A stretch of 34,042 bases of DNA from a virus, in IMG/VR virus record IMGVR_UViG_3300002514_008718, positions 15,933 through 49,974 of that record; one strand, given 5' to 3'. Within the stretch, counting starts at the first letter, position 1, and each line of letters opens with the position of its first letter. The notes under the pieces were generated by a model. The model was not told the DNA's origin. It saw only the letters and a program-made list of their open reading frames with translations, and searched no databases. The translations under genes and the position numbers were made by a program. Of this stretch, positions 1 to 25,318 are shown piece by piece.

Positions 1-386
1 CCCGTATTTGACGGATTTAGTGATGGATTTCCAAGTGCATAGTGAAGTGTATCTGAAAATATTGCAATAGAAAATATTCTAAATTTATTATTATCCAAGA
101 ACCTAAAATGATGTTGCGGATCTTGACATACTACGTTTTCAATATTTTGATTTTCTAAATACTTTACAAGATCAGAGTCGCTATCTACAAATACTACTCT
201 CTTGTGATCTAATTTTGAGGAACAATTTTGTATTAAATTATTGTCTATATTGTCATATGACTTTCCCCTTCTCTCCCTATAGCAAATTAGATGAGGAATT
301 ATTCCAGCATTATTTGAAAAATAAACAAGTGGGCCAATTGCCTTAAAAAATGTCTTTCCTTTTGCTAGAAATGCAACATTTTTCAT
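1..386 (-). CDS. Partial glycan-cluster protein, N-terminal part only, GT-B-like
   Basis: The ATG at 386-384 overlaps the TGA stop of the upstream gene as ATGA, so translation is probably coupled. The frame stays open to the left edge (about 128 residues visible), so the gene is truncated by the window. The start MKNVAFLAKGKTFF, followed by alternating hydrophobic strands such as KRVVFVDSDSDLV and NIENVVCQDP, looks like the N-terminal Rossmann half of a GT-B or CDP-glycerol-transferase-like protein. No catalytic motif is in the visible part, so the enzyme class is inference from context. Moderately sure it is a real gene, not sure of its function. Confidence 0.6.
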   Translation of the reverse strand, partial: MKNVAFLAKGKTFFKAIGPLVYFSNNAGIIPHLICYRERRGKSYDNIDNNLIQNCSSKLDHKRVVFVDSDSDLVKYLENQNIENVVCQDPQHHFRFLDNNKFRIFSIAIFSDTLHYALGNPSLNPSNT

Positions 387-1294
387 AAAGCACCCCTGTT
401 GGAAAAAATTTCATCAGAAGATACAGGTCTATCCAGACTTGAAAATATTGACTTAATTTCATCATTTTCAAATATTGGAACTATAAGATCATCTCTCTCT
501 TTATTGAGATTATCATGGGTATAGTTTGGAAAATCTATCGCACAGGGATATTTCATAAATATCTTTTTTAAACCCATCTCTTTTGTTCTTGCTAAGTAGT
601 CACTGTAGTGATTGACACCATTAACACCAGATAGCCAGTGATCTAGTATCTCCCTATCTTTTATCTTGTCAACTTCAGCATAAGGGCCTATTTTTTCATA
701 CATTTCTCGATGTTGAATATGATAGTCATCATAGCACTTGTAGATTGCTGTAAAATACTCCACTCCATCTTTTGTAATTTCAATTGCTTCTGTCTTGTTG
801 TTCTTTTTAAGAATTCTTTGATGTGATAGCCCTCTGTATATGATACTAGAAATATCTTTAATATTATATTTTTCTTCTCTATGCGCCATAATTGACATAG
901 CTTCAGATATCCAGTCACACCTTCTTATGAACTGATGGTCGTCTGCAATTTCAACAAATATATCACCTTTTGATATTTTTCTTATTTGATTTCTAAACAT
1001 TCCAAATATTGAGTGCATTTTCTTTCTCTTATCAGGAAGCCCTACACCCTTCTTATCAAGATATTCAAAATAGTCACTCTCATTTGACAAAAGTATGGTT
1101 ACATTATTCACCTTATTGGAATAATCGACTAAAAATTCTCTAGTCCCATCTCTTGACCCATAGTCTGATATTATCCATTCAAATGGACCGTCATATACGT
1201 TGCATGCATCAAAGCTTCTAAGAAGATTCTTAAGAAGATTTATTCTATTAAATGTGTTTACGTAATATGTTACGAATGGTTTTCTTTGGTTCAT
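383..1294 (-). CDS. Family 2-like (GT-A) glycosyltransferase
   Basis: 303 residues. The start FVTYYVNTFNRINLLKNLL matches the first strand and helix of GT2 enzymes; the nucleotide-binding motif appears as DYGSRDGT rather than the usual DDGSxDGT, and EIADDHQF about residues 115-122 fits the metal-binding DxD region. It would move a sugar from a nucleotide donor to a glycan acceptor in the cytoplasm. Its first 47 bases overlap the end of the radical SAM gene upstream, longer than most overlaps here. A weak AAGAGA ribosome site lies about 9 bases before this ATG, so I keep this start. Donor and acceptor cannot be told. Confidence 0.75.
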   Translation of the reverse strand: MNQRKPFVTYYVNTFNRINLLKNLLRSFDACNVYDGPFEWIISDYGSRDGTREFLVDYSNKVNNVTILLSNESDYFEYLDKKGVGLPDKRKKMHSIFGMFRNQIRKISKGDIFVEIADDHQFIRRCDWISEAMSIMAHREEKYNIKDISSIIYRGLSHQRILKKNNKTEAIEITKDGVEYFTAIYKCYDDYHIQHREMYEKIGPYAEVDKIKDREILDHWLSGVNGVNHYSDYLARTKEMGLKKIFMKYPCAIDFPNYTHDNLNKERDDLIVPIFENDEIKSIFSSLDRPVSSDEIFSNRGAL

Positions 1295-3341
1295 TTATAA
1301 TTCTCTTTTTTCTTGATACATCTTTTAATAAGTGCTCTACATTCCATTTCCAAAAATTATATTGCGTAGATATACCACCCTCTCTAAAATTACAATCCCT
1401 ATGAGAAAATTTTACCAATTTCTCTTTATTGTTCGATGTGCATTCTGAAACATTATTTAGCTTTAAAACTTCACTATTTTTAAATTTTGCTACAATATAT
1501 TTCTTATTATCTGATTTTTTAACAATACTTTTAAATGAACTTGAATGCTTAATTGTCTCATATTTTTTTGGAAATATTAGCATATCAAATGAAAGCATTT
1601 CTTTTGCTATTGATAGGCTTAGCATGGCTTTTTTATCAAATACTGCCGGTCTGTCTTTATAATAAAACTCTATAAATGATAAAATATCTAGATGAATATC
1701 ATCATAATTTTTAAATAAAAAATTATCCAATGCAGTCCTACCTGCATGTCTATCTTCATAAAGTAAATTATAATATTTTTCTACTAAATTGACAATAATA
1801 CTATTATTATTTTTGGACCAATCTCTTAGAGACATTGTGACATCATAAAATGATGTGCCTGTAGAGTCTGAAATAAAATAAACTGTCTTATTAAACAGTC
1901 TCAGTGTATATGTCAGATAGAAAAAGCTCTCAATATTAAGTGCAATAGACATATCCCCTATAGGAAATGACGATGTCGAAATAACCGTATCTTGATCCAT
2001 TGTCCTACTCCCTCTTAGGGTCTTAATACCGAGCTCTTCTCTTCTTTTATCAAAATTTGATCCAGGAAGTATTGAAAGCGGAAACGTCTGAAACTTGTTT
2101 GGTCTAAGCTTCATTACATTTTGAACACTATGTAAATAACCGTTTAGATCGTCGCCAGGTAAGCCTAAGATTAAATCCATTTGAAACGGTATTCTTCTCT
2201 TTTTAATTCTATGTACAGTATCTTCAAATCTTACGTAGTTTGTCGGTCTATACATAACTTTTGCAGCTTCTTTATTAAATGTCTGTATTCCAACATCAAG
2301 CTGGCCCATTATCTTTCTACCTACAAGCTCTTCTAAAACGTCAAGAAAGTCATCATTTAGTGTCTGCCAGAAAAAATATCCAGATAAGTTTATATCAGCG
2401 TTAATCTTTCCTATCTCGAGCACATTTTTTAAAAACTCTAAGTCTCTTACCTTTTTTAGCCCAAATCCAGCATCAGCTAGGTTGAATTGACGTGCACCAA
2501 TTTCAACAAGATTGTTAAACTCATAGATCATTCTATCTGATGAATGATAGTCTATTTTTTTATCTGCAACACCCCATAGACAGTAGCTACAAGAAAATGG
2601 ACAACCTCTATATGACTCTAGCTGAAAAATTCTCTCACCCATTTCATCTGATACAGATTTTGGAATTCTATTTTTTTGATAAGCCTGCGGTATATTTGAA
2701 AAAGGAATAAAGTCACCTGCTCTAATTCCAAATGTATTTCCAGTAAATTTATTATATCTGTCTTTTTCCTTAGATGCACCCTTGTGACTTTTTTCTTGAT
2801 CTTTTAATATTTCATCAACTTCTATCTGAAGCATGTCTATTGAGCTATCTATAAAGTCACCTACGAAGTATATTCCCTTGGCTCTCTGTGATGCAAGTGA
2901 CATCTTGCTTTTTTCAAGATTATGATTAAATTCTCTATTTGCCTCCATTATTCTTTGAATTGGTCGCTCTCCGTACCAGGAAACAAAAAAGTCTGCTGAT
3001 TCACTATATCTTTGTGTAAAGTAGATTGGATCTTCTGATATGTGCGGGCCTCCCCATATGATCCAGCATTTATCGCCATAGTATCTTTTTAGTGAATGGC
3101 TTAGCTGTTCAACAACTTTAAAATTCCAAAGATATACAGAAAATGTAACGACACTAGGGCTATAGCTTACAATATCAAAAAACACCTTGTGCAAGTCTTC
3201 GCTATTCTTATACTCAAGTGTAATTAAGTTATCTTCATCACAAAGATCATTATCTATAAGGATGTTTGACATGTGAAGTTGAGGCAGGGGAGTAAATAAT
3301 ATCTTTCCAGAATGCACCATTACCTGAACTATTTTGGACAT
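1248..3341 (-). CDS. Radical SAM protein with N-terminal B12-binding-like domain
   Basis: 697 residues. Residues about 40-140 look like a B12-binding Rossmann fold (PSVVTFSVYLWNF, then IIWGGPH at 94-100). The radical SAM cluster motif CPFSCSYC has cysteines at 247, 251 and 254, and is followed by the beta strands of a partial TIM barrel (DLILGLPGDD, QTFPLSILPGS). The C-terminal 250 residues resemble the DUF4080-type tail of B12-binding radical SAM proteins. I do not see the DxHxxG cobalamin-ligand motif, so actual cobalamin binding is uncertain. Such enzymes often methylate or rearrange unactivated carbons; a sugar or glycan substrate is inferred from position. It starts 9 bases after the methyltransferase gene. 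Confidence 0.8.
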   Translation of the reverse strand: MSKIVQVMVHSGKILFTPLPQLHMSNILIDNDLCDEDNLITLEYKNSEDLHKVFFDIVSYSPSVVTFSVYLWNFKVVEQLSHSLKRYYGDKCWIIWGGPHISEDPIYFTQRYSESADFFVSWYGERPIQRIMEANREFNHNLEKSKMSLASQRAKGIYFVGDFIDSSIDMLQIEVDEILKDQEKSHKGASKEKDRYNKFTGNTFGIRAGDFIPFSNIPQAYQKNRIPKSVSDEMGERIFQLESYRGCPFSCSYCLWGVADKKIDYHSSDRMIYEFNNLVEIGARQFNLADAGFGLKKVRDLEFLKNVLEIGKINADINLSGYFFWQTLNDDFLDVLEELVGRKIMGQLDVGIQTFNKEAAKVMYRPTNYVRFEDTVHRIKKRRIPFQMDLILGLPGDDLNGYLHSVQNVMKLRPNKFQTFPLSILPGSNFDKRREELGIKTLRGSRTMDQDTVISTSSFPIGDMSIALNIESFFYLTYTLRLFNKTVYFISDSTGTSFYDVTMSLRDWSKNNNSIIVNLVEKYYNLLYEDRHAGRTALDNFLFKNYDDIHLDILSFIEFYYKDRPAVFDKKAMLSLSIAKEMLSFDMLIFPKKYETIKHSSSFKSIVKKSDNKKYIVAKFKNSEVLKLNNVSECTSNNKEKLVKFSHRDCNFREGGISTQYNFWKWNVEHLLKDVSRKKRIINEPKKTIRNILRKHI

Positions 3342-3350
3342 TATTTCACG

Positions 3351-3962
3351 CTATTTTGCAGCTTGGACGTTTAGAGACATTGGGATTCCATTTTCAAAAT
3401 CCATGTGAGGTCTGTATGCAAAGCTAAAGTCATCAATATTTCCATGAAATGTATCCCACGGATGATATCTTTCAATTCTCTTAAATCCTGACTCATATAG
3501 CAATGATCTTAGATTGGCAAGATTAAAAATTCTTCTATGGGTAAATTCATTCAGCTCTTCTTTTTCTCTTCCTCCGTATATCCAGTTTAGTAGATTTTCA
3601 AGATCTCCTGTTTGCTGATAATACTTTACTGTAGAGTCCCAATCTGGAACTGATATTCTTATGACGCCTCCTGTCTTTAGCACCCTGTTCCACTCTATTA
3701 GTGCACCTAGTGTATCGCCTCTAGGCATATGCTCTAGAACGTGGCACGCGTAAATATAATCAACAGATTCGTCATTAATGGCGCTTAAATCTCTAGCATC
3801 TGTCATTGGATGTTGTATTTCAGGTATGTCAAGATTGTCAACATTAACAAAGCCCTTAAACGGCTTATTTCCACAGCCTATGTTTAAAAGAATAGCACCG
3901 TCTCTGCTCCATCCGGGCCAGTACTTATCATCTTTAAACCTTGGTGTAACAATATTTGTCAC
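3351..3962 (-). CDS. Class I SAM-dependent methyltransferase
   Basis: 203 residues. Motif I is LLNIGCGNKPF (25-35), followed by NVDNLD as the acidic ribose-binding strand and DYIYACHVLEHMPRG then RVLKTGGVIRISVPD, the standard Methyltransf_11 layout. The start is GTG at 3962-3960: it overlaps the TAG stop of the epimerase gene as TAGTG and has a strong AGGAG ribosome site 6 bases upstream. It probably methylates a sugar or its nucleotide-activated form. The acceptor cannot be predicted. Confidence 0.85.
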   Translation of the reverse strand: MTNIVTPRFKDDKYWPGWSRDGAILLNIGCGNKPFKGFVNVDNLDIPEIQHPMTDARDLSAINDESVDYIYACHVLEHMPRGDTLGALIEWNRVLKTGGVIRISVPDWDSTVKYYQQTGDLENLLNWIYGGREKEELNEFTHRRIFNLANLRSLLYESGFKRIERYHPWDTFHGNIDDFSFAYRPHMDFENGIPMSLNVQAAK

Positions 3963-4945
3963 TATTTTCTCCTATCTAGATTTAAAAGATCTGCACATCT
4001 ATTGATGCCTTCCTCTAGAGTTGTTGGTGGGTTAAATCCGTGTGAAAGCATAAGGTCTGGGTTGCTTACTCTATAGTAGACACCCTCTGGCTTATCAAGC
4101 AGAGGATTTACAGGAATGTCGTCTAGATTGTGAAGCTGTTTACCCATTAGCTTAATTAAATCTCTAAAGCTTGTAGCATTTCCAGATCCGAGATTTACAG
4201 CACTTCCATTGTTTATTTGATTCATTATATTAAGCATTCCATCAACACAGTCATCAATATAGATAAAATCTCTAACTTGATCTCCAGTACTCCAGACATC
4301 AACTGGATCTCTTCCGTTATAGTTTGCAACTCTTCTTAAAATTGAAGGAAATGGATAGTTTAAGTGTTGATCCTCACCATATCCTGAAAACGGTCTAAAA
4401 CAAACTGTATTTAAACCATTTCTCTCATATGCGAGCTTAGCAAGATACTCTCCTGTTAATTTTGCCCACCCGTAAGAAAGATCAGGTTTTCCAATCACCT
4501 CACCGTCAAAGTCAATATCGCTTTCAACAAGCTGTCTATGATATTTTCTAGTTTGATACTTGGTAGGGTACGCAGCTGATGAGCTAAAGAACACAATTTT
4601 CTTTGGCTTTGTCTTAACAGCCCAGTTATACATTCTTGCATCAAGTGCAAGATCTTCTGCAACAACAAGCGGTGCATACTCTATTGTAAGTCTACCGCCC
4701 ACTATTGCTGCTAAATGAACTACAATATCAAATCTTTCTGTACATGATTCAAAGAATCTTGTAGCATCTTGATGAATAAATTTAATCTTTCTTGTAGACT
4801 TTAAGTGTGTCATCCACTCACTTGGGTGAAGTGAAGATTCTGATATTAGATTATCTACTATGGTAATATCGTACCCTATGTCAGACATCTTTTTAACAAT
4901 GTGGCGTCCTACAAATCCGGCACCACCCGTAACTAAAACATTCAT
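3962..4945 (-). CDS. Extended SDR NAD-dependent nucleotide-sugar epimerase/dehydratase
   Basis: 327 residues, the normal size for extended short-chain dehydrogenases. The N-terminal TGGAGFVG (6-13) is the NAD-binding glycine motif; Ser 121-123 and YGWAK (Tyr158, Lys162) form the catalytic triad; RDFIYIDDCVDGM is the conserved C-terminal part. The overall look is nearest to GDP-mannose/GDP-fucose type epimerases, though UDP-sugar 4-epimerase or heptose epimerase activity cannot be excluded. The ATG overlaps the TGA of the STELLO-like gene upstream (ATGA). It supplies an epimerised or deoxy nucleotide sugar to the glycosyltransferases of the cluster. Confident on family, not on substrate. Confidence 0.88.
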   Translation of the reverse strand: MNVLVTGGAGFVGRHIVKKMSDIGYDITIVDNLISESSLHPSEWMTHLKSTRKIKFIHQDATRFFESCTERFDIVVHLAAIVGGRLTIEYAPLVVAEDLALDARMYNWAVKTKPKKIVFFSSSAAYPTKYQTRKYHRQLVESDIDFDGEVIGKPDLSYGWAKLTGEYLAKLAYERNGLNTVCFRPFSGYGEDQHLNYPFPSILRRVANYNGRDPVDVWSTGDQVRDFIYIDDCVDGMLNIMNQINNGSAVNLGSGNATSFRDLIKLMGKQLHNLDDIPVNPLLDKPEGVYYRVSNPDLMLSHGFNPPTTLEEGINRCADLLNLDRRK

Positions 4946-5928
4946 AATGAGCTTATATCCTCAATCCAGTCTCTTTGAAATGCAGTCATTTCTCTACTAA
5001 TAAAAGGTAGATCCTTTATACCTTCAACTATGCAAGAATACATCTCAAGTGTGTTATTTCCAAAAACATCTATCTCATTTAAAGCATTTAGAAACGATAA
5101 TGTATTTCTATATCCTATAACCTCTCTCTCTAGATCCTTAGATAGATCATGAATATTTCTATCTTGATACACAGTAGGCTTTGTAAATAGAACGCTTGTT
5201 CCAATTTCTCTCATAACTCTTTGTGACATATAGCTTGCCCAAATATCATCCATCCTCCCTATATCGAAGCCCAGGCACATTGCAGGTGCAATTCTTCTAG
5301 TAAAAAATGTATTTTGAGTATTGTAGGGTGAAAATGTGCAATTATCTATTGCAAAATTTTTATTGGAAAACTTAAGATCAAATGGTCCACCTGCTATCCT
5401 GCATACTGCATCAACATCTGGATCACCATCCCAAAGACCTGCTTCAACTTCTACAGTAACAGATTCAACTTTTTCTCTTCGTTTATTTCTTTCTTCTAGA
5501 AGTTGTACGGGAAAGCCTCTGTGCCAAAGCTTGCTAGATGTTGCCTCACTGTGCTCAAATAGTGAATCACATACAAGATCATCTGAAATTACTCGCTGAA
5601 CAACTGATTTTCCCAATGAGAGATTTTGTCCCCAGCAGTCATATGGAATATTATCATCATCAATTGTTGCTATGACGTCTGCACCATTTCTTAGTGCTAA
5701 GAGATATCCAATATTTCTTCTTTGGATTAGGTTCCACGGAATATGTCCTACTGATTTAAATCCTAAATCTTTTTGAACGCTTGCTGGATAGAATTCACCA
5801 TTTTTTAGTTTTATATCTGGCGTTTTTTTATCACCTATGACTATTAGATTCCACCCATCCATTTCATCAAACTTAGAAAGAGCAGGTGTGACATCATTTA
5901 TTGTTGTTGTGACTATAAATTTATTCAT
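4942..5928 (-). CDS. STELLO/DUF288-like glycosyltransferase
   Basis: 328 residues. The N-terminal strand-helix FIVTTTIND, WNLIVIGDKKTPDI and a DDDN motif (IATIDDDNIPYD) match what I know of the STELLO (DUF288) family, a GT-A-like group best known from eukaryotes and also found in some bacteria and viruses. The DDD would bind a metal and nucleotide-sugar phosphates. The start overlaps the last 8 bases of the preceding gene, with AGGA about 9 bases upstream. An alternative reading is a reversibly-glycosylated-protein-like mutase. Family call is from motif recall, not a search. Confidence 0.65.
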   Translation of the reverse strand: MNKFIVTTTINDVTPALSKFDEMDGWNLIVIGDKKTPDIKLKNGEFYPASVQKDLGFKSVGHIPWNLIQRRNIGYLLALRNGADVIATIDDDNIPYDCWGQNLSLGKSVVQRVISDDLVCDSLFEHSEATSSKLWHRGFPVQLLEERNKRREKVESVTVEVEAGLWDGDPDVDAVCRIAGGPFDLKFSNKNFAIDNCTFSPYNTQNTFFTRRIAPAMCLGFDIGRMDDIWASYMSQRVMREIGTSVLFTKPTVYQDRNIHDLSKDLEREVIGYRNTLSFLNALNEIDVFGNNTLEMYSCIVEGIKDLPFISREMTAFQRDWIEDISSL

Positions 5929-6739
5929 TTAGCCAGTCCTCTACATGCTGTTGTTTTATATCTTTTGCTTGCTTGCAGATTATGTTGTCAGGAATATCTG
6001 CATTAGTTAAAATGTCTTGAACCAAAGAGCTATCACCTATATGATAAAACCCTCTAGCTAGATCGAGATTATATGGATTCATGGCTCTGTGCATGATATT
6101 ATCCTGATAGAATTCATCACTTGGCAAGCTTTCATGATTAACTTTATTGTATCTCATATCATCATAAAAATAAATTTCATTCTCTTTAAAGTTACTTTGA
6201 ATAATGAATGAAAGAAGAGACTCAGGGTTTCCAACCTTAAAATAGTCAACAATATTGTCTATATTAAATATATTTCGCTTATCGATCTCGCTTTTTCTGA
6301 ATATTATAAAATGATCATCAACGTCGCCGTGTATGCACTTTTCTGTCCTGTACTCAAGGCCTCTTCCTCTAAATGCGACGTGAATATTATTTTTATTCAT
6401 AAAGTCTATTATTTCTAAAATAGGTTCAACCTTTGTAGCGTATGCATCTGAGTGATAGTGAACAATAAACTCAGATGAGCAGTTTAGTATTGACGTCATT
6501 ATACAGTCAAATATTCTTAATCTTCTATACGGCTTTGGTGTATTTTGAATACTGTGATCTCCAGCTGTAAATTTATCAATATCTAGACTTTTGACTCTTT
6601 CAAAGCTTGATGGGTCATTACAACATACACTTATAAATGAATCATTTTCATCTTTCCAGTGACTTCTAATGATATTTATATTTGTATTTAGTTCATCAAT
6701 TTTATTATATACAGATAATGCAATTCCAATTTTTTTCAT
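5921..6739 (-). CDS. GT-A-like glycosyltransferase
   Basis: 272 residues from the ATG at 6739. An in-frame ATG also exists at 6763, but MKKIGIALSVYNKIDEL is the normal first strand of a GT-A enzyme and the 6739 start lies 2 bases after the upstream stop with AAGAGA before it, so I prefer 6739. EFIVHYHSDAYAT supplies a DxD-like acidic site (HSD), and DEFYQDN later may be catalytic. Divergent from textbook GT2 enzymes. It sits between two other glycosyltransferase-like genes and shares their transcript. Confidence 0.6.
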   Translation of the reverse strand: MKKIGIALSVYNKIDELNTNINIIRSHWKDENDSFISVCCNDPSSFERVKSLDIDKFTAGDHSIQNTPKPYRRLRIFDCIMTSILNCSSEFIVHYHSDAYATKVEPILEIIDFMNKNNIHVAFRGRGLEYRTEKCIHGDVDDHFIIFRKSEIDKRNIFNIDNIVDYFKVGNPESLLSFIIQSNFKENEIYFYDDMRYNKVNHESLPSDEFYQDNIMHRAMNPYNLDLARGFYHIGDSSLVQDILTNADIPDNIICKQAKDIKQQHVEDWLNE

Positions 6740-6741
6740 TT

Positions 6742-7464
6742 TTATTCTCTTATTAGAAACCATTCGTTTTTAATCTCTTCTACTGCCACATCTTTATTTT
6801 TTCTAAGGTGAAAATCCAATATAGGTTCTGGTCGAAATACCTTGCTTTCTTTAACAATTAGATCCATATTATCAAAAATAGATGAATAGTAATCAATATT
6901 TTTTGAGCTTGATATGGCGAAAACATCTCTTATTGGTATTCCACCATTTCTAGCTTCATCGTCACAATTTGGAACATATATTGTTTTATCAATATCGACT
7001 ATATCTTCTCCAATGTTAATTGGAGAATTAAATCCAAGATCTGTCCTGTGCCTTATGACAGAATCATATACAAAATTATTTTGACTTTCATATTTTAATT
7101 TTTGATCATTGCATTTTTTAATCTTATAGTACATTGCAAGTATATGTTGACCCTTGCTCCTTACACCTCCAAATCCTTTTTTTACCCATCTTGGATTTGC
7201 TACAAATTTCATATATTCTGAGGTATCCCACTCTATTTCTTTCTCAACATTTATTGAAACTGGAGAGTATATTGAAATAACTTTATCAATAATGCTCCTT
7301 GTAGATTCAAACATTTTAACTGTTCTCCAGTCCTGATTGTCCCATGTGTCAATAAAAAAATCAAACTCATGCTCAGCATTAGGAGAAATTATATTTTTAT
7401 AAAAATTTTCATACCCCTCTTCGAACTGTCTAAGATGGCCTGAGATGCAGACAGCAATTTTCAT
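6742..7464 (-). CDS. Putative glycosyltransferase of the CISGHLR type
   Basis: 240 residues. The start MKIAVCISGHLRQFE is a recurrent opening of poorly characterised glycosyltransferase-like proteins in polysaccharide clusters of bacteria and large viruses (often MKIAxCISGQLR). Further landmarks are DFFIDTWD, a conserved-looking SKGQHILAMYYKI helix and VIRHRTDLGF, which resembles the acidic active site of that group. The ATG overlaps the upstream TAA as TAATG with GGAAAG 7 bases before. The activity is inferred from context; I know of no biochemical characterisation of this group. Confidence 0.55.
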   Translation of the reverse strand: MKIAVCISGHLRQFEEGYENFYKNIISPNAEHEFDFFIDTWDNQDWRTVKMFESTRSIIDKVISIYSPVSINVEKEIEWDTSEYMKFVANPRWVKKGFGGVRSKGQHILAMYYKIKKCNDQKLKYESQNNFVYDSVIRHRTDLGFNSPINIGEDIVDIDKTIYVPNCDDEARNGGIPIRDVFAISSSKNIDYYSSIFDNMDLIVKESKVFRPEPILDFHLRKNKDVAVEEIKNEWFLIRE

Positions 7465-14380: not shown

Positions 14381-14384
14381 AATT

Positions 14385-15113: not shown

Positions 15114-15125
15114 AAGTAGTGCCCT

Positions 15126-16538: not shown

Positions 16539-17016
16539 AATATTCACCTCTGTAGTGAAGTATATTATCACTACAGATTCCTCCACATTTCTTAATTAAT
16601 CTCTTTGGATAGTCTACATTTTCAGGCATTACAGCTATGGCACCATAGCATAGACGACTTCCAGGATACGTCCAAATATACCCTTTACTTGTGATAGTGT
16701 AGCTATCTTCCTGATGCCAGAATACATTCCAGCCTATGCGTGAGCCTAGAAGCCACTTTAGAGCTTCTAAGTTTTTAGCATGAAGCCATAGCACATCCTT
16801 TCTTTCAATAAGCCAGTCTAGGTTAACTTGATATTGTGGATAATCATGCCCTAGATAAAAGTCTCCAGGCGGGACATATCCCGTTGTTAGCCTTATGTCT
16901 GTTTCTACTTCAAATCCTTGATTAATTGCCTCGTCAATATAATCAGGTGAATTTTCTCTTGCAGCATTTGATTCTGATAGCCCGTTAAGATTTCCCCTAT
17001 GTGATATAAACTTCAT
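16525..17016 (-). CDS. Minimal GDPD-like protein
   Basis: 163 residues from the ATG at 17016, which overlaps the upstream TGA as ATGA; a longer in-frame ATG at 17061 would extend 49 bases into the upstream gene and adds no motif. FISHRGNLNG, SPDYIDEAINQGFEVETDIR and FYLGHD retain the His-Arg, Glu-x-Asp and second His of glycerophosphodiester phosphodiesterases. The length is well below the usual 240 or more, so parts of the barrel are missing or divergent. Such short versions occur in surface-glycan clusters; a phosphodiester trimming or transfer role is inference. Confidence 0.6.
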   Translation of the reverse strand: MKFISHRGNLNGLSESNAARENSPDYIDEAINQGFEVETDIRLTTGYVPPGDFYLGHDYPQYQVNLDWLIERKDVLWLHAKNLEALKWLLGSRIGWNVFWHQEDSYTITSKGYIWTYPGSRLCYGAIAVMPENVDYPKRLIKKCGGICSDNILHYRGEYCENT

Positions 17017-17903
17017 AGTGATCTCATAATATCTAAATACTGATCGGTGCACTGTCCCCAAGAATTAATCGATAAGCTATTATTGACATAACTCCTGGAT
17101 CTGATAATTCTAAGTAGCTGATCAATGTCTTCAAACGCATGATCTTGTCCTGCAAATTCAACTGCCCCTCCTCCGTCTTTTGTAACATATGTTGGTATTT
17201 GACATGCTATACTCTCTAAGATGTGATTTGGCCCAGGATCGTATAGAGATCCGCTTATATATACATCGTATTTTGAAAGCTCATCGCCGAGAGCCTGGCC
17301 AAATAATGGAGAAATAATAGAAGTATTATTAAAAGTTCCTAGCTCTCTTCCAATATAAGTAAAAGTAAAATCAGAATCTTTAACAAATCTATCTATAGCT
17401 TCATAGATGTCAAATCCTTTCATTCTATTGTTTGACCAGTGGTGTGTAACAATATTTACCTTTCCATTATTAAGCTTTTCTCTTTTTTTAAAATGATCTA
17501 AATCTACTCCGTTGTATATGACACCAGTGTCTTTACAGTTCCAGCCTTTTGAAAGATGATAGTCTCTCATCCAGTTCGATACAAATACTGTATAGTCTGT
17601 ATATCTGCTACATTCACTAAGAAAAGAATCAAATCCTGTTGTTCCTTTTCTTGCATCACACTCATTAACCCTATGTATAACTTTAACATTTGGATTTTGA
17701 ATCTTCCAAGAGGCTATATGATTTATTGATATTCCTGTATTTCCAGGCCTAGGGTCTTGCATAAAGATGACATCAATTCCTGGCTGGAATTCATAAACGA
17801 CTTCTATTCCGAAATCTCTTAGACCCTTACAGAGAGCGCTTACAAGAAGATTTCCACCTCCCCACGGTCCATCAATAGGCTTTCTATTAACAAGAACCTT
17901 CAT
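17013..17903 (-). CDS. GT-B (family 4-like) glycosyltransferase
   Basis: 296 residues. WGGGNLLVSALCKGL is the N-terminal glycine-rich loop, VIHRVNECDARKG and VFVSNWMRDYHLSKGW precede the interdomain region, VIYNGVDLDHFKK is the typical GT4 linker, and ISGSLYDPGPNHILESIACQIP is the E-x7-E donor-binding helix equivalent. It starts 4 bases after the upstream methyltransferase stop. It would act on the cytoplasmic face of the inner membrane. Donor sugar not predictable. Confidence 0.85.
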   Translation of the reverse strand: MKVLVNRKPIDGPWGGGNLLVSALCKGLRDFGIEVVYEFQPGIDVIFMQDPRPGNTGISINHIASWKIQNPNVKVIHRVNECDARKGTTGFDSFLSECSRYTDYTVFVSNWMRDYHLSKGWNCKDTGVIYNGVDLDHFKKREKLNNGKVNIVTHHWSNNRMKGFDIYEAIDRFVKDSDFTFTYIGRELGTFNNTSIISPLFGQALGDELSKYDVYISGSLYDPGPNHILESIACQIPTYVTKDGGGAVEFAGQDHAFEDIDQLLRIIRSRSYVNNSLSINSWGQCTDQYLDIMRSL

Positions 17904-17907
17904 AAAT

Positions 17908-18654
17908 TTACCAGGTTAGAATGTAATCTTCAACATTAAAATCTTTATTTCTCAAGAGAACTTGTCCATAATCTATTTGACTATCAGTATAGCCCCTATC
18001 GTCAACAAATATCCTTCTATCCATGATTATAAGCTCTTTTGTTTCATCTTCAATTTCATCTATAAGCGTTGCACACTGAACTCCTGGGCTCTTTTCTTTT
18101 GACTCCATATGATAGTCGTCAAATAATAAAAATTTATTATATTTGTCTTTTGTTAGCTCCCAGTCTTTCTTAACTGCATCATACGTGTGGTCGCCGTCTA
18201 TATACACCATATCAAATTTTTCATTAATTTTCTCTAGTGCATCCTCTGACTTTCCTCTCATAAATTTAATTTTTTCAAACCACTCTGATGGGAAGACATT
18301 TGTTAGATTATTTAAAAATTCTTCATTAAAGTTTGGATCTATTGTCATAATCTTTCCATTAAGCCCGAGATCTGTCATTGCCTTTGCAGCACAAAATGTT
18401 GAATACCCTCTACCAAATCCGACCTCTAAAAAAGATGTAATTTTAAACTTTGTTATTAGTGCGTAGATTAGTATCCCTCTCTCATAATTCGGCCTGAAAA
18501 AGCATCCAACAGATCTGTATAGATCACTATTTTGAGATCTATTTTTCTTTGCTGTGTACTCTCCAATTGCATCAAAATCTCCAAGAGAAATTGACTCTAA
18601 AGAGAAGTCTATATCTTGTAATTTTTCTTTTATTCCTAGTGTTTTCATTCTCAT
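17908..18654 (-). CDS. Class I SAM methyltransferase (Methyltransf_24-like)
   Basis: 248 residues. FLEVGFGRGYSTFCAAKAM is motif I, MTIDPNF the following acidic strand, and DMVYIDGDHTYDAVKKDWEL is the characteristic IDGDHxYxxVxxD motif of Methyltransf_24 family enzymes, where the aspartates can bind a metal. The ATG overlaps the upstream TGA; a second ATG two codons later has a better spaced GGAAG. Two methyltransferase genes in a row suggest two different methylation positions on the same product. Confidence 0.85.
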   Translation of the reverse strand: MRMKTLGIKEKLQDIDFSLESISLGDFDAIGEYTAKKNRSQNSDLYRSVGCFFRPNYERGILIYALITKFKITSFLEVGFGRGYSTFCAAKAMTDLGLNGKIMTIDPNFNEEFLNNLTNVFPSEWFEKIKFMRGKSEDALEKINEKFDMVYIDGDHTYDAVKKDWELTKDKYNKFLLFDDYHMESKEKSPGVQCATLIDEIEDETKELIIMDRRIFVDDRGYTDSQIDYGQVLLRNKDFNVEDYILTW

Positions 18655-19430
18655 ACTTCCGTGGCATCAACAATATTGATCATTTTATTTTTATCTTTAT
18701 TTTTAAATCTTACACAAAACTGACCAGACATTGTATCTGGTGCGGGTGCTATCCATAGCTGCTTACTTCCAATACTAGCATCAACGACTTCAAAATATTT
18801 TGACATATAGTCAATTGCAAACTCAGGTTTAAAAAATAGTGTACTATCTCTTTCATTAAAAAAATCTGTGCCTAGCTGTGACTTTTCTATATAGTCTAAA
18901 TCCTTAAAGTCTTGAAATCTGTGAAGACCAAGGTATATGACTCCAACACCATCCGGCTTAAGTCGCTTACTTATAAACTCAATATAGTCGTAGAAGTACT
19001 GAATTGAAGAAAAGTGCTGGAATACAATAAAGCTATAGACAAAGTCTACAGAGTTTTCTGGGATTTCTTCGATATTTTTATAATTGAATAAAGAAAAATT
19101 TTCAATTCCCTTTGACCTCAATATCGATGCTGTTGTATCTCTTGCAGATCCATCTATTATGTCTACACCTAGAGATTTCTTAAATACTCTGGATGCTGCA
19201 GACAGCAATCTCCCGCCTCCATAGCCGATCTCTAGTGACACCTTGTCTCTTGGGTCACCAAGTGCAATATATATATCGGGGGTTAAAATCTTTCCAAAAA
19301 AATCAATGTATCCCTTTGAATATCCGTGCTCTACTGATTTACAATCATCAAACCAGTTTTGAAATTTATCAATATCTTTACTGTGTGTATTTGCCGTTTC
19401 AATCCACGACCTATCTATTACTTCTTTCAT
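18651..19430 (-). CDS. Class I SAM methyltransferase (Methyltransf_11-like)
   Basis: 259 residues. SLEIGYGGGRLLSAAS is motif I, SLGVDIIDGS motif II, FVYSFIVFQHFSS the post-motif II strand and RLKPDGVGVIYLGL motif III. It starts on TAATG overlap with the cupin gene, with AGGGTG about 5 bases before. The helical N-terminus (about 1-60) may gate the substrate. Most likely a sugar or lipid-linked-sugar O- or N-methyltransferase. Confidence 0.85.
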   Translation of the reverse strand: MKEVIDRSWIETANTHSKDIDKFQNWFDDCKSVEHGYSKGYIDFFGKILTPDIYIALGDPRDKVSLEIGYGGGRLLSAASRVFKKSLGVDIIDGSARDTTASILRSKGIENFSLFNYKNIEEIPENSVDFVYSFIVFQHFSSIQYFYDYIEFISKRLKPDGVGVIYLGLHRFQDFKDLDYIEKSQLGTDFFNERDSTLFFKPEFAIDYMSKYFEVVDASIGSKQLWIAPAPDTMSGQFCVRFKNKDKNKMINIVDATEV

Positions 19431-19792
19431 TAATCACCCTTTGTAATTCTATGGCTATCGCTATCAAAGTGCTGAGTTGAGAATTCAAATAGCTCAGAGT
19501 CTTCAAGTGCTATCATCTGATGTCTCAATCCCCTATAGACATGAAAATTTTCACCGCTATTTAAAGTAACTTCACTTGATTCTTCAATATCGTCTTTATC
19601 AGAATATTTGACCAACATCTTTCCTGACTGAAGATAGAATACTTCATCCTTTAGCTTGTGATAGTGCCATGAACATCTCTTTCCTTTTTCAAAAAATAAA
19701 AGCTTTCCACAATATTCAGATGAGTTTACTATCCATCTTTCCCAGCCCCATCCTTTTTCTACAAACTTTATTTCTGGTTCATTTTTTGGCAT
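19430..19792 (-). CDS. Small cupin, phosphomannose-isomerase-like
   Basis: 120 residues. KGWGWERWIVN and CSWHYHKLKDEVFYLQSGKMLV form cupin motif 1 with HxH and the downstream Glu as metal ligands; NFHVYRGLRHQMIAL is motif 2. The pattern resembles the C-terminal cupin of type II mannose-6-phosphate isomerase/GDP-mannose pyrophosphorylase proteins and small WbuC-like cupins. A sugar isomerase, epimerase or binding role fits. The start overlaps the last 14 bases of the kinase gene. Confidence 0.75.
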   Translation of the reverse strand: MPKNEPEIKFVEKGWGWERWIVNSSEYCGKLLFFEKGKRCSWHYHKLKDEVFYLQSGKMLVKYSDKDDIEESSEVTLNSGENFHVYRGLRHQMIALEDSELFEFSTQHFDSDSHRITKGD

Positions 19793-20603
19793 AGTTTTCC
19801 ATTATTATTTTTACATCTTCTTTGTTTAGTGAGTATGTTCCAAATTTTGATACAGAGTATGCAGCACAGCTATTTGCAAAATAGATTGATTCTCTAATGT
19901 TTCCCCTTGAAGAGAGATACATGTAGGCCAGACCTGAAATAAATGTATCTCCTGCACCACAGGCATCATAGACGTCGATGCTCTGTGATGAAAATATTTC
20001 TCCTTTCCACTTTGCACCATTTTTTCCAAGCGTGACAATTATCTCAGAATCTTTAGGTTGTGATTTCATTTTTTTAATTTCGTCATGATTTACTTTTAAA
20101 ATAACATCTTTAAAGCAATCAGCATTTATTTTTTTTGTATCGACAAATATTGGAATATCTGGCCAGTTTTTTCTAATATTTTTTAAGATTTTTGGAATAT
20201 ATTCATAGTTTAAAAATCCCTTATTGTAGTCAGAAAATATTACTGCATCAAACGACATGCTTGTCAGCTGCTGATCTTTAGTAAAGATATCATGCTCCAA
20301 TACATCACAAGGGTCTGAATCATCTATTCTCAATATCTGTCTATTAAATTTCTGATCTATTATTCTTGTTTTTATAATACTGCTTTCATTTGTAATGTGG
20401 CAAATTTCACATCCAAGGCCAACTAAATTATCGTGAACATTTGCAGACATTCCTGCTCTGATTTCTGATCTATTTCTATCAAATATTGGAACAGGTGCTT
20501 CTTGGCTTAGCCTGGAACAATTGCCATAGATGTATACATCTTGACACGATTCACCTATCAGCAATATCTTGTAGTGTTTTTGTTGTTGAGTATCCTTTGA
20601 CAT
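19779..20603 (-). CDS. hldE1-like: HldE kinase-domain-like carbohydrate kinase (PfkB family)
   Basis: 274 residues from ATG 20603 (AAGGTGG lies upstream; an ATG-like start further up at 20639 would only add unrelated residues). YGNCSRLSQEAPVPIF is close to the SRISPEAPVPV signature of the HldE/RfaE kinase half, AGMSANVHDNLVGLG matches the GGAANVA motif, and DACGAGDTFISGLAY carries the catalytic GAGD. Expected reaction: phosphorylation of D-glycero-D-manno-heptose 7-phosphate at C1. Its first 53 bases overlap the adenylyltransferase gene, giving a split, order-swapped HldE. Confidence 0.82.
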   Translation of the reverse strand: MSKDTQQQKHYKILLIGESCQDVYIYGNCSRLSQEAPVPIFDRNRSEIRAGMSANVHDNLVGLGCEICHITNESSIIKTRIIDQKFNRQILRIDDSDPCDVLEHDIFTKDQQLTSMSFDAVIFSDYNKGFLNYEYIPKILKNIRKNWPDIPIFVDTKKINADCFKDVILKVNHDEIKKMKSQPKDSEIIVTLGKNGAKWKGEIFSSQSIDVYDACGAGDTFISGLAYMYLSSRGNIRESIYFANSCAAYSVSKFGTYSLNKEDVKIIMENYAKK

Positions 20604-20943
20604 AGTCAAATATAACCACCTTACAAATATCTGAGCCAACTACATCTTTAGCTGAGTAGTCGCCGCCTTTAACAATTATATCAGGTTTTATGCAATTTAT
20701 TAACTCATATGGTGTTTTTTCATCAAATAAAATAACACTATCAATATATCTAATTGATTCCAAAATAAGCTTTCTATCATCCTGACTATTGATCGGCCTA
20801 TTCTTTCCCTTGTTCTCTTTGACGCTTCTATCAGTATTTAATCCAACTACAACTTTATCGCCAAGTGTTTTGCAAAATCTAAATAGTTCAATATGACCCC
20901 TGTGTAAAACATCAAAACATCCATTTGTAAAGACTATAGGCAC
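20551..20943 (-). CDS. hldE2-like: HldE adenylyltransferase-domain-like protein
   Basis: 130 residues, the size of the C-terminal half of HldE. FTNGCFDVLHRGHIELF carries the HxGH nucleotidyltransferase motif, VVVGLNTDRSV and NRPINSQDDRKL are the next conserved stretches, PDIIVKGGDY and KGYSTTKTL close the domain (STT replaces the ISTT loop). It should transfer AMP to heptose 1-phosphate, giving ADP-heptose. The start is GTG, 10 bases inside the end of the GT9 gene. The SDR and HAD genes could supply other steps, but I see no GmhA isomerase. Confidence 0.85.
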   Translation of the reverse strand: MPIVFTNGCFDVLHRGHIELFRFCKTLGDKVVVGLNTDRSVKENKGKNRPINSQDDRKLILESIRYIDSVILFDEKTPYELINCIKPDIIVKGGDYSAKDVVGSDICKVVIFDYVKGYSTTKTLQDIADR

Positions 20944-21782
20944 AACTCATTCCCTATTATTTGAACAATATCCTTCCACTCATGATTAACTCTATCGCCT
21001 ATGCATAAAGGACAGTCTATTTTCATTCCGCACGGTCCATGAGATGATATGTCTATGTTTATATTTTGTGGATAAGCAACCATTTTTAAACTTTGATAAC
21101 CGGTTATGATAACCAAGCTTTTTGTATCAAATGCTGTTGCAGCGTGAACAAGGCCGCCTTCTGAGCTTAGAAATAAATCTGATCTTCCTATTATTCCTGC
21201 AGTATTTGTAAAGCTAGTTTTGCCTGTAAGATCTATTACATTGTCTAGGACTTTTGACCCTTTTACACCAACCTGTACAATGCAAATATCGTCTTTTAGC
21301 GAATTTACTATATTTTGCCATTTTTCAAATGGATATTTTCTATTTTTTGTATAATTTTCCTTAGATGTAGGCTCAATTGATATAAATTTCTTATTTTCTA
21401 TTTCATTTTCTACTATTGAATCAATGATATTTTTCGACTCTTCGTTGATATCGATATAGCACTTAAGAACAGGATCTGATATTCCATATACATCGCAATA
21501 TTGCTCTATAATGTGCTTATCACTTTTATGATATGCTTTTTCATATGTGTCTTTTTTACAGTAGTTTGCATCTGGATTATTTAAAACTAGCGGAAAGATA
21601 TAGTGCTCGCCAGCTTTATCGATTACTGATATAAAGTCATTATTATTTAAAAATATCTCACTATCTATAATTTTTATAAAGCTGCCATGCTTTTCAATTG
21701 GTAGTATTTTAACACTGTCGCTTGATCTTTTTTTAATTTCTCTTGCAACAGCAGTCCAAGCAAGATATCCGCCAAGCCCCAT
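20934..21782 (-). CDS. GT9 heptosyltransferase-like glycosyltransferase
   Basis: 282 residues. The start GLGGYLAWTAVAREIKKR resembles the GD-x-(L/I) donor loop of GT9, KYPFEKWQNIV is the conserved (K/R)xxPxexW segment and TAGIIGRSDLFLSSEGGLVHAAT is the ADP-heptose-binding region with SSEGGLVHAA in place of the usual NDSGPMHLAA. It lies directly upstream of the ADP-heptose synthesis pair, so a heptose donor is likely. CGMKIDCPLCIGD suggests a disulfide or metal-binding pair near the C-terminus. The ATG is next to the preceding TAA. Confidence 0.8.
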   Translation of the reverse strand: MGLGGYLAWTAVAREIKKRSSDSVKILPIEKHGSFIKIIDSEIFLNNNDFISVIDKAGEHYIFPLVLNNPDANYCKKDTYEKAYHKSDKHIIEQYCDVYGISDPVLKCYIDINEESKNIIDSIVENEIENKKFISIEPTSKENYTKNRKYPFEKWQNIVNSLKDDICIVQVGVKGSKVLDNVIDLTGKTSFTNTAGIIGRSDLFLSSEGGLVHAATAFDTKSLVIITGYQSLKMVAYPQNINIDISSHGPCGMKIDCPLCIGDRVNHEWKDIVQIIGNELCL

Positions 21783-21783: not shown

Positions 21784-22692
21784 TTATTTTCTCAACATTG
21801 ATCTAAAAAGACTAGAATATTCTTTTGATGCTCGCTGTATTGATATATCAATATCATATTTATTTTCTACTGTTTTGGAGAAATCAAGCTTGGGTGGCTT
21901 ATAAAGATTAATAGGTGAAAAATCCCAATCATCTTCATAGATTAGCTTAGAGTCTTTTCCTGATATCTCTTTTGTACCTCCTGATGAAGAGCAAACTATC
22001 TTACAGCCACATGCTCTTGCATCAACAACGACATTTGGACAGTGATCAAGCCACGCAAGATGAATAAAATAATCAGATCTTTTATATATTGAAATTAGAT
22101 CTCTCCACTCTATGTTTCCACCATAAAAAATTCTATGATGCTTTACAACTGCATCTGGATTTGGTCCCAGAACTATTAGACAGTGTGTGTCGGGTGCAAA
22201 TTCTAAAAAATACCTTATATTTTCAGAAAGTCTCTTGTGAGGCCTCCAGGACGAAGCACAGCACCATACTTTTTCAAATTTATCAAATATTGTATGTGAT
22301 GATCTCTCTATAGAGTTAATAAGCTCAATATTTGTTCCATTTCTTATTACCTTATAGTTCCAGTGATTTCCAAAATATTTTGTAATTAGGTCTCTATTAA
22401 AATCTGTTTGAAATACAACAGCTTCGGAATTCTCATATGTCTCCTTAATAGGTTTATTTAGTGACTCATAATCCTGGTCTGTATTAAAGTAAATGCCATC
22501 CAGCCTTTGAATAAGCGGTGCGTACTTTATCCTAGACATTATAAAAGAAAGCTGAATATCTGGAATAAACTCGCTTGTAATTTCTGTCCTTGCATCTATT
22601 TCAAGCTGTGATAGTCCCTCTATTAGCCTTTTAGCAAATGAATTTGGACCAGAATTTGAATCTGTGTTGACATTGTCCAAAAATACATTCAA
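21784..22692 (-). CDS. GT-B (family 4-like) glycosyltransferase
   Basis: 302 residues. NSGPNSFAKRLIEGL is the N-terminal glycine loop, VFQTDFNRDLITKYFG and VIRNGTNIELI the linker, RPHKRLSENIRYFLEF the donor-domain start and WLDHCPNVVVDARACGCKIVCSSSGG the E/D-x7-E-like donor helix region, with Asp replacing the first Glu. The ATG overlaps the upstream TGA. Donor unknown. The C-terminal helix QRASKEYSSLFRSML folds back as in other GT4 enzymes. Confidence 0.82.
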   Translation of the reverse strand: MNVFLDNVNTDSNSGPNSFAKRLIEGLSQLEIDARTEITSEFIPDIQLSFIMSRIKYAPLIQRLDGIYFNTDQDYESLNKPIKETYENSEAVVFQTDFNRDLITKYFGNHWNYKVIRNGTNIELINSIERSSHTIFDKFEKVWCCASSWRPHKRLSENIRYFLEFAPDTHCLIVLGPNPDAVVKHHRIFYGGNIEWRDLISIYKRSDYFIHLAWLDHCPNVVVDARACGCKIVCSSSGGTKEISGKDSKLIYEDDWDFSPINLYKPPKLDFSKTVENKYDIDISIQRASKEYSSLFRSMLRK

Positions 22693-23393
22693 CCTAAAAA
22701 ACCTCTAGCTCTTACAAGATTTATTGTTGAAAGCTGCTTCATTTCACACCAATCCCTATCATTTACAGACACAGATTCAATATTATAGAGATAGCATATT
22801 TCATCAATATATTTTCTTTTATTTGTAAGCTTTAAAATCGGAAGCATAAGAGCTTGATCATAACCTCTTTGGAACCAGTTTCCCCACGGGTCTTTAAAGT
22901 TTATATCAGATATCTGTTTTAATAATGTTGACCTAAATGTTCTAAGATGTGAAGAGCACCATGGCCAGCTATATGGATCAACATTATCAGGCATGCTTCT
23001 AGATATATTTAAATTATTAATATCCCACCTATGTCCTGTCCATACTACATCACTACCTTTTTCATATTCTCTCATTAAGAGATCAATTGTTTCATTGTTG
23101 CATAGCTGATCATCGCCGTCTATAACAGCTATTATTGTATCTTTTTCATTTTCATATTTTCTAGATACTTCAACTATGTTCCTAAGTGCAAACTTTTTCT
23201 CTTTATTTATAATAAAGCTAAATCTATCATCATCTTCACATATACTAATAAGCTTATCTGCAGTGCCATCTTCAGACATATCGTCTATTAAAATATGCTT
23301 AAAATTACTATTTAATTGAGATCTAACTGATTCAACTAGACTATCTAGATTTGCTTCAGCATTAAAACAGGGAGATATAAAGACTATATTCAT
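22689..23393 (-). CDS. GT2 family glycosyltransferase
   Basis: 234 residues. VFISPCFNAEANLDSLVESV, HILIDDMSEDGTADKL and IIAVIDGDDQL are the three canonical GT2 motifs, ending in the metal-binding DGDD. HRWDINN and PYSWPWCSSHLRTF would form the acceptor site. Short C-terminus without membrane helices, so it should be soluble or peripherally attached. The ATG overlaps the upstream TGA as ATGA, coupling it to the large fused glycosyltransferase. Confidence 0.88.
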   Translation of the reverse strand: MNIVFISPCFNAEANLDSLVESVRSQLNSNFKHILIDDMSEDGTADKLISICEDDDRFSFIINKEKKFALRNIVEVSRKYENEKDTIIAVIDGDDQLCNNETIDLLMREYEKGSDVVWTGHRWDINNLNISRSMPDNVDPYSWPWCSSHLRTFRSTLLKQISDINFKDPWGNWFQRGYDQALMLPILKLTNKRKYIDEICYLYNIESVSVNDRDWCEMKQLSTINLVRARGFLG

Positions 23394-25318
23394 TTTTTAA
23401 TCCAGTCTGTCATAATTTTTGGATGATCTATGTCTATGCTTATATGGGGAGTAGGGTTTGAAAAGTCAACCTTTTTATGAAAAATCCAGCCACCCATATC
23501 AGATTCAAGCTTAGCGGCAAGTTTATCAATATTTTTATCAGAAATCTCTGACCATGGTGAATCAAAAAACATATTATTTTCGCTGGTATCATCTTGGCTT
23601 ATATCATATAGGCTTTGCCAGTGCTGAGACCAATAGCTCTTATATGTCTTAATTTTTCTAGATATATCGAACCATGAATAGTGATGAACTCCGGGTATTG
23701 ATGCAACAACTGATTTAAACCAGTTTTCAAAATTTATCAAAGCTGAACTATTTGTCAGCGCCTCTCTTTTGACTGAATCTACGTCACCAGTATAAAACGT
23801 TGCAAATTGAATTGGTGAAAAATTATCACTTCTAATATAGTCACAACCATCACTACCTGGGGCAGAAAATAAATCCCCATTGCTATCAAATCTCCTTAGA
23901 CTTGCGGGAATTCCGTGTGTAATATGAGGCAGGTTTCTACTCAATCTCCACTTCCACGGATTTATATCCATCCTAACTTTATTTTTAGATCCCCAGTATT
24001 CAATAACTGGAAGGGCTAGCAATTCCACTCCTTTTGGAAAATTTCTAACAAGATCTTTTATTTTATCATAATCTTCTTCATGTACAATTTCATCAACATC
24101 TTGTTGCCAACAAAACTTAGAAGTACACAAAGATCTAGCAAGTGCTTTTTGAAGACCATCAAATACAGCATACCGCTTATGATCCCAGTTTCTACTCTGC
24201 TTGTGAACAAGCAGAGATGGATTATCTTCTGATAGTTCAACTAGCTTTTCCCAAGTTCCATCGTCAGATCCTCCGTCGACTACAACTACTTGATCGCAAA
24301 ATTCTAGTAATGACGCTATGGACTGGACGAACGGATAGTTTTGAGATATACAGTTTTTTGTCGTGGTATATCCGCTAATTGTAGGATAATACGACATACT
24401 ATACTTTACTCCATTCCAGAACCTATTTCTTGCAGCATAGAGATATGATTCTATATCAAGAATATTATCAGTATCAAACCAAATTTCATCCTTATGTTGA
24501 ACATTATCATTTATTTTTAGCTGACAGCCGAGCAACTTAGCTTCAATAACCATTCTTGGACATGTATCACCGCCCATAGGAAGATATACAAAACCTTCTG
24601 CTTTTGAAAGAATGTCAAGAACTTGGCTATAGTCTTTATCCCATACGACTTCATATTTCTTTTTATTTTTTTGACACCATAGTTCAGCTGATTTTGCTCC
24701 CTTTATCCAGGAATTTGAACCAAGAACTACCCATCCATCTCTATCTTTATCTTTATTTCTTTCTCTGAGTACTTTTGTTGTTGCAAAGAACTTTTCATCA
24801 AATACAGATGAAAGAACTGTGTTATTCTTCTCACCTAGAAAAGGAAATACAGTATGATATCTATCCTTTTGAGCTTCTGACATCCACCATAATGTTTTTG
24901 CACCATAAAAAAATGTAGAAATTATTTTTCCATGAATGTCATTATGACAGTCACATGGGACAGACTCTTGTGCCATGTGTTTCTCAGGCGATCTATATCT
25001 ACAATATTTGTAATCATATTCAACTATATCATATTTTATATTTGAAACAATTGTTGGAATTAATTCTAAATTCATCTGAGAGAAATTTCCAAATATCCAG
25101 AACTTACTAAATCCCTGTTCAAGAAGTTTTAAATTAACATCTTTAGAATGAAGTCTAAAAACATTAAACTGAGAAGAATCAATTAATGCGTCAGTAGTCA
25201 TCTCTGCGCCACCGCAATAGTCTGACGAAAATAAGTCTGATACAAATATAACTTCACATGATGAAGGTATTTCTATCTCTTCTTTATTATTAAATGCACT
25301 ATTATTGAATGATATCAT
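23390..25318 (-). CDS. Fused GT-B and GT2 bifunctional glycosyltransferase
   Basis: 642 residues in two halves. Residues 1 to about 310 are GT-B-like: FVSDLFSSDYCGGAE, WVVLGSNSWIKGAKSAE, then FVYLPMGGDTCPRMVIEAKLLGC as the donor-binding helix. Residues about 315-642 are GT2-like: ISQNYPFVQSIASLL, VVVVDGGSDDGTWEKL and FCWQQDVDEIVHEEDYD, where DVDE is the metal site, resembling the WaaE/KdtX group. Two glycosidic bonds could be made by one chain. It is the first gene of the glycan operon, has a good CTGGAG ribosome site, and lies just downstream of the tandem repeats at 25371-25443. Confidence 0.82.
   Translation of the reverse strand: MISFNNSAFNNKEEIEIPSSCEVIFVSDLFSSDYCGGAEMTTDALIDSSQFNVFRLHSKDVNLKLLEQGFSKFWIFGNFSQMNLELIPTIVSNIKYDIVEYDYKYCRYRSPEKHMAQESVPCDCHNDIHGKIISTFFYGAKTLWWMSEAQKDRYHTVFPFLGEKNNTVLSSVFDEKFFATTKVLRERNKDKDRDGWVVLGSNSWIKGAKSAELWCQKNKKKYEVVWDKDYSQVLDILSKAEGFVYLPMGGDTCPRMVIEAKLLGCQLKINDNVQHKDEIWFDTDNILDIESYLYAARNRFWNGVKYSMSYYPTISGYTTTKNCISQNYPFVQSIASLLEFCDQVVVVDGGSDDGTWEKLVELSEDNPSLLVHKQSRNWDHKRYAVFDGLQKALARSLCTSKFCWQQDVDEIVHEEDYDKIKDLVRNFPKGVELLALPVIEYWGSKNKVRMDINPWKWRLSRNLPHITHGIPASLRRFDSNGDLFSAPGSDGCDYIRSDNFSPIQFATFYTGDVDSVKREALTNSSALINFENWFKSVVASIPGVHHYSWFDISRKIKTYKSYWSQHWQSLYDISQDDTSENNMFFDSPWSEISDKNIDKLAAKLESDMGGWIFHKKVDFSNPTPHISIDIDHPKIMTDWIKK

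Follow-up and report, generated by a model that had tools for sequence, protein, structure and literature searches.

A 34,042-nucleotide stretch of viral DNA, positions 15933-49974 of the 49,974-base IMG/VR record IMGVR_UViG_3300002514_008718 (the whole stretch is here called the window), carries a large cluster of glycan genes which, in related phages, has fixed ends and a variable interior. Sugar clusters have been described before in marine and jumbo phages, but this architecture of fixed ends around a swappable middle appears to be new. The cluster may encode a phage-borne glycosylation system that works in the cytoplasm, draws on a sugar set open to exchange and most probably targets virion proteins, the fiber for example; we give this reading an even chance.

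The left part of the contig was added to the analysis, and genes were numbered g01-g55 along the contig. Window positions 1-25318 hold 29 minus-strand genes (28 complete and one cut by the window edge) and are 99.1% coding, with 22 of the 28 gene junctions overlapping or no more than 5 nt apart. The minus strand has 29 open frames of at least 100 amino acids and the plus strand 3, and mononucleotide shuffles average 0.34. An earlier reading of this DNA (the original prediction) had reported near-continuous minus-strand coding, as was found, but counted 28 genes and placed the cluster's limits at a fiber gene and at position 1. The fiber boundary held; at its other end the cluster runs 7.9 kb further, to the left of the window, so that the whole spans contig positions 8029-41250, with 36 open reading frames (ORFs; g10-g45) in approximately 33 kb. 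This extension adds two GT4 glycosyltransferases, a methyltransferase, a PD-(D/E)XK nuclease, a nucleotide-sugar dehydrogenase, a NeuB-cupin protein and a CMP-sugar synthetase.

The record is a fragment of a tailed phage with T4-type myovirus features. Baseplate wedge genes (gp6 and gp25) are present on the contig, with matches to phrog_6 (1e-16) and phrog_43 (9.5e-4). In order of transcription, UvdE (g52), PhoH (g49), two small proteins and the fiber-like g46 precede the glycan cluster (g45 to g10), which is followed by small conserved genes (g09-g07) and then by genes that include the gp25-like g04 and gp6-like g03; all of those named are on the minus strand. Phage genes rather than bacterial housekeeping genes therefore flank the cluster, in keeping with the phage origin first proposed, and the baseplate genes led us to reject a bacterial source for the contig. 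A terminase, which the original prediction had suggested seeking on the same contig, gave no match on these 50 kb, but was present in longer contigs of the same lineage (G004, G005, G006, G007 and G012).

A search with gp6 returned 56 related viral loci, and all g-proteins were mapped on nine of the larger records. These share a constant chassis of PhoH, fiber, g45, a variable stretch, g14, g13, g11, g10, g09, g08, g07, g06, gp25, gp6, g02 and g01, the flank genes being mostly 35-67% identical. The interior numbers approximately 30 genes, of which about 8 are shared by G005 and G006 and about 2 by G008 and G009. The downstream set conserved in the longer relatives checked comprises the g13 nuclease, the GT4s g11 and g10 and usually g14; g11 was found in all of 19 records. 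Every large relative checked has g45 and g11 on either side of a same-strand interval that ranges from 1 to 32 kb and varies in content. Computed from gene coordinates, it measures 28.9 kb in the studied phage, 27.0 in G005, 31.8 in G006, 20.2 in G008, 20.5 in G009, 22.2 in G014, 23.6 in G015, 13.6 in G016, 20.4 in G017, 11.0 in G018, 9.3 in G019, 21.8 in G020, 3.6 in L101 and 1.0 in L150. The last of these (L150:3562-12580) is nearly cassette-free, with g45 followed directly by g13, g11 and g10, and represents a natural minimal form. The set thus recurs as a block beside fiber and baseplate genes in many other phage contigs, a check proposed at the outset.

At least 245 relatives of g45 were found in viral contigs, and 80 of these loci were examined. 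PhoH, the small genes and the fiber always lay upstream of g45, and all other matches lay downstream, with one exception. Its commonest neighbors, g44 (64/80 loci) and g43 (50/80), usually follow it; a freshwater-type subset differs in having PhoH on the opposite strand. A scan of the species-genome collection with exact peptide patterns, which distant bacterial homologs could escape, found g45 in only three contigs, each with other genes of the same phage set; at this sensitivity, g45 is restricted to phages. The three (L161, NHDW01000006.1; L160; L162) are filed under metagenome-assembled genomes of Methylococcaceae, Halobacteriovorax and Pelagibacter and look like misbinned phage contigs. 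Searches of the annotated phage collection with g45 and the fiber g46 (tblastn) gave no match. The phage-restricted g45 and the fixed flanks lend indirect support to the earlier suggestion that the cluster goes beyond simple host mimicry, and the conserved flanks single out g45, g11 and g10 as likely to act on a constant acceptor.

Relatives of g13-g11-g10 are also grouped with one another and with further sugar genes in two cultured phages, Flavobacterium phage immuto and Microcystis phage Mel-JY01, for which our literature search found no functional data. A second group of viral contigs (L167-L177), in which the NeuB-cupin gene occurs, has relatives of the same three genes followed by two NeuB-family genes, which suggests that this nuclease-GT4-GT4 module predates the g45 lineage.

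The interior genes are under purifying selection: pairwise pN/pS (nonsynonymous to synonymous change) was 0.17-0.59 across fourteen gene comparisons, in several of which synonymous divergence was saturated. This argues against the genes being headful-packaging filler with no selected function. The role of phage lipopolysaccharide (LPS) clusters has been debated for years, filler DNA still being considered for those of cyanophages in 2010 (PMC3037559), and the approximately 30-fold variation in interval length would suit it. Given 29 intact, tightly packed genes, 99% coding density and fixed flanks, however, we regard filler as very improbable.

A single hydropathy script, run on the 831 ORFs that lie downstream of g45 in the 80 loci, found none with three or more membrane segments and none among g10-g45, whereas in the E. 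coli O16/colanic region, used as a control, it found five proteins with 5-9 segments. Flippase, polymerase and initiating transferase are therefore missing, and assembly is likely cytoplasmic. This disfavors an autonomous surface polysaccharide, such as a self-sufficient Wzx/Wzy locus would make, and favors a soluble acceptor (virion or DNA) or an existing host glycolipid. The original prediction of a complete decorated glycan accordingly stands as regards the several sugar-activation branches and many glycosyltransferases encoded, but not as regards completeness, as the enzymes need host precursors and lack these membrane components.

We propose that this phage, one of a lineage of large aquatic myoviruses, would produce activated sugars in the host cytoplasm during infection: heptose-type (g40/g41, perhaps g21), a UDP-hexuronic acid (g14), a CMP-nonulosonic acid (g15/g16) and other nucleoside diphosphate sugars (g25, g32, perhaps g30). 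These would be aminated, O- and C-methylated and possibly sulfated, and would be joined by soluble glycosyltransferases on a phage-made acceptor, for which virion proteins, the neighboring fiber for instance, are the likeliest candidates. The constant linkage would be the work of the conserved g45, g11 and g10, while the exchanged interior genes would set variable outer sugars, such that related phages show different coats. The order of addition is presumed, and the benefit might be shielding or altered adsorption. In gene content, the cluster has the virus-encoded sugar activation and soluble glycosyltransferases of a virion glycosylation system, and a virion acceptor is supported by the position of the cassette between fiber and baseplate genes, on the same strand, in related phages. 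A Ser/Thr/Gly/Asn-rich ORF was the nearest upstream same-strand gene of g45 in 25 of 53 testable loci, while none of 480 downstream ORFs was so rich. As a fiber-like gene directly precedes g45 in only these 25, we infer rather than observe that the fiber is the acceptor.

Several observations weigh against a virion acceptor. In about half of the relatives PhoH, not a fiber, lies directly before g45, and the fiber was rejected as a universal g45 neighbor. The T4 late promoter TATAAATA showed no enrichment in the window or left flank and thus gives no support to late expression of the cassette. The related genes of immuto and Mel-JY01 neighbor replication and lysis genes instead of virion genes. 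Nor can the acceptor of g45 be read from its fold: in an AlphaFold2 model built from 33 sequences (mean predicted local distance difference test score, pLDDT, 92), residues 19-311 match functionally diverse GT-B enzymes (Z ~16-20), so that the likeness to T4 DNA alpha-glucosyltransferase, which is among them, does not discriminate. The predicted second half is GT-A-like, with the peptide glycosyltransferases SunS and ThuS as top Foldseek matches at low TM-scores and polysaccharide and teichoic-acid enzymes next. Transferases of the LPS core also lack membrane segments, and the missing machinery is therefore compatible with a lipooligosaccharide (LOS) acceptor. Finally, a virion glycan in this lineage is a prediction from gene content.

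The cassette might instead act on the LOS or LPS of the infected host, remodeling it from within the cytoplasm and thereby altering the receptor to which rival or sister phages would adsorb, so that they fail to do so. We consider this unlikely, but a serious contender. The ADP-heptose-type genes, the GT9 heptosyltransferase-family protein and the nonulosonic-acid branch fit LOS chemistry, and LPS-core transferases share the lack of membrane segments. Host-surface modification is also the prevailing reading of such clusters (PMC7029224, PMC3037559, PMC7824862), including the published one for pelagimyophages (PMC7029224) and jumbo cyanophages (PMC7824862). Against it stand the absence of flippase, polymerase, ligase and initiating transferase, the restriction of g45 to phages, and a place among virion genes which, on presumed timing, would mean expression late for exclusion. 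Moreover, g11/g10 relatives are kept in phages whose hosts' envelopes differ greatly; the occurrence of relatives of the g13-g11-g10 module in flavobacterium and cyanobacterium phages favors a phage-borne acceptor.

Such an acceptor could also be the phage's own DNA, in which 5-hydroxymethyl bases would be glycosylated with diverse sugars from the cassette as a defense against restriction. DNA glycosylation by phage-encoded transferases is established, the conserved g13 nuclease adjoins the GT4 pair, and the closest PDB relatives of a thymidylate-synthase-family protein in G006 are CMP and dCMP hydroxymethylases (family matches in G004 and G005 were weak). However, this family is absent from four large g45 carriers (G015, G017, G018 and G019; 236-322 kb, possibly incomplete records) and from the complete genome of Mel-JY01, which has g11/g10 relatives; hydroxymethyl-DNA thus does not generally accompany the module. 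So large a cassette, placed beside virion genes, is also unusual for DNA modification. We hold this explanation to be improbable, but still a live rival. A 242-kb relative carries a dCMP-hydroxymethylase-like gene (L073:1468-2316) followed by a dUTPase-like ORF, and its DNA may contain hydroxymethylcytosine.

Genes were annotated by Pfam, NCBIfam and PHROG matches, several of them sub-threshold as marked in the table. The chemistries originally listed were recovered, namely GT2, GT4, GT9 and STELLO-type glycosyltransferases, nucleotidyltransferases, methyltransferases, and B12-type and SPASM radical SAM proteins; for the sulfotransferase-like gene a Sulfotransfer_2 match exists but is sub-threshold. 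As most equivalog cut-offs were not reached, the exact sugars are not to be named with confidence.

Table. Genes of the glycan cluster and its conserved upstream neighbors (GT, glycosyltransferase; HAD, haloacid dehalogenase; NDP, nucleoside diphosphate; APH, aminoglycoside phosphotransferase).
Gene(s)	Window position	Strand	Assignment	Remarks
g10, g11	left of window	-	GT4s	
g12	left of window	-	methyltransferase	
g13	left of window	-	PD-(D/E)XK nuclease	
g14	left of window	-	nucleotide-sugar dehydrogenase	TIGR03026 above cut-off
g15	left of window	-	NeuB-type synthase fused to cupin	closest PDB relative SpsE-type 3g8r, 2.5e-76
g16	left of window	-	CMP-sugar synthetase	best model PseF, below cut-off
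g17	1..386	-	no family match	360 amino acids, cut by window edge; follows g16
g18	383..1294	-	GT2-like glycosyltransferase	sub-threshold
g19	1248..3341	-	B12-binding-type radical SAM	best NCBIfam model KedN5 C-methyltransferase, below cut-off
g20	3351..3962	-	SAM methyltransferase	
g21	3962..4945	-	NDP-sugar epimerase/dehydratase	best model ADP-heptose 6-epimerase, below cut-off
g22-g25	4942..9044	-	g22 STELLO-type GT; g23 no match; g24 DUF7796; g25 nucleotidyltransferase + APH-like kinase fusion	g24 weak
g26, g27	9106..10286	-	g26 HAD phosphatase; g27 no family match	
g28, g29	10384..12419	-	g28 HisC-like aminotransferase; g29 radical SAM/SPASM protein	
g30-g33	12425..15746	-	g30 C-terminal HAD-like domain; g31 choline-kinase/APH-like; g32 sugar-1-phosphate nucleotidyltransferase; g33 HAD phosphatase	g30 sub-threshold
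g34, g35	15759..17061	-	g34 sulfotransferase-like; g35 phrog_34507	g34 sub-threshold
g36-g39	17013..19792	-	g36 GT4; g37, g38 methyltransferases; g39 cupin (phrog_7851)	
g40-g42	19779..21782	-	g40 HldE-like kinase domain; g41 HldE-like nucleotidyltransferase domain; g42 GT9 heptosyltransferase family	g40 and g41 separate ORFs
g43, g44	21784..23393	-	g43 GT4; g44 GT2	commonest g45 neighbors in relatives
g45	23390..25318	-	GT-B + GT-A two-domain glycosyltransferase	upstream bookend
g46	25511..29095	-	Ser/Thr/Gly-rich fiber-like protein, 1194 amino acids	candidate acceptor; directly before g45 in transcription order
g49	29725..31044	-	PIN-PhoH protein	conserved upstream neighbor

For g17 no relative was found in viral contigs or the PDB, and its single-sequence structure prediction was poor (pLDDT 32). 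No PDB match was found for g30, and g06 and g08 were without a family match in the libraries tried. Adjoining PhoH is the UvdE-type UV-damage endonuclease gene (window 31956-32873), which exceeds the Pfam cut-off. A 174-amino-acid protein at window 31367-31891 has a signal-peptide-like start and by eye resembles a small outer-membrane protein.

Purifying selection, absent membrane machinery and conserved flanks together bring the question within reach of a test on virions from a single cultured carrier. Should virions prove to be glycosylated, coat switching comparable to bacterial serotypes would exist in tailed phages, and would bear on adsorption, predation and phage immunity. More tentatively than for glycosylation itself, we suggest a serotype-like system of widespread large tailed phages, in which constant phage-specific transferases would anchor the virion glycan and cassette exchange would alter the coat as O-antigen loci do. 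Bacterial O-antigen and capsule loci, such as the E. coli galF-gnd region, likewise have fixed flanks with exchangeable sugar genes between them, but the phage version is without flippase, polymerase and initiating transferase.

Many sugar genes beside fiber genes, with contents varying among relatives, are also the mark of hypervariable LPS-type or host-recognition clusters. The pelagimyophage host-recognition cluster is likewise a large hypervariable region with tail fiber genes, many glycosyltransferases, rfaE and UDP-glucose dehydrogenase (PMC7029224). In our phages there is instead one block between g45 and g11/g10, on contigs of up to 322 kb, and fixed ends are not described in the available part of that report. 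The LPS clusters of cyanophages P-SSM2 and S-SSM7 are similarly big sugar clusters in large marine myoviruses, one of them near phoH (PMC3037559), and jumbo-phage clusters share cupins, sugar kinases, nucleotidyltransferases and several transferase families (PMC7824862). The present cluster is larger and chemically broader than these, is bracketed by phage-conserved transferases beside baseplate genes, and has had its selection measured. Moraphages are also large aquatic phages with gp6, gp25 and PhoH in their core, which includes four glycosyltransferase groups of unknown role; the same report cites virion glycosylation in mycobacteriophages (PMC12619734). The Lys-tRNA ligase common in moraphages (PF00152) was absent from 10 of 10 records here, the class I enzyme lying outside this search. 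Chloroviruses and mimivirus are eukaryotic giant viruses with known glycans, whereas the phage system is predicted from its genes. Like it, they encode nucleotide-sugar enzymes and transferases without membrane domains, and as their glycans are on viral proteins they provide a precedent for soluble, self-encoded virion glycosylation (PMC4691112).

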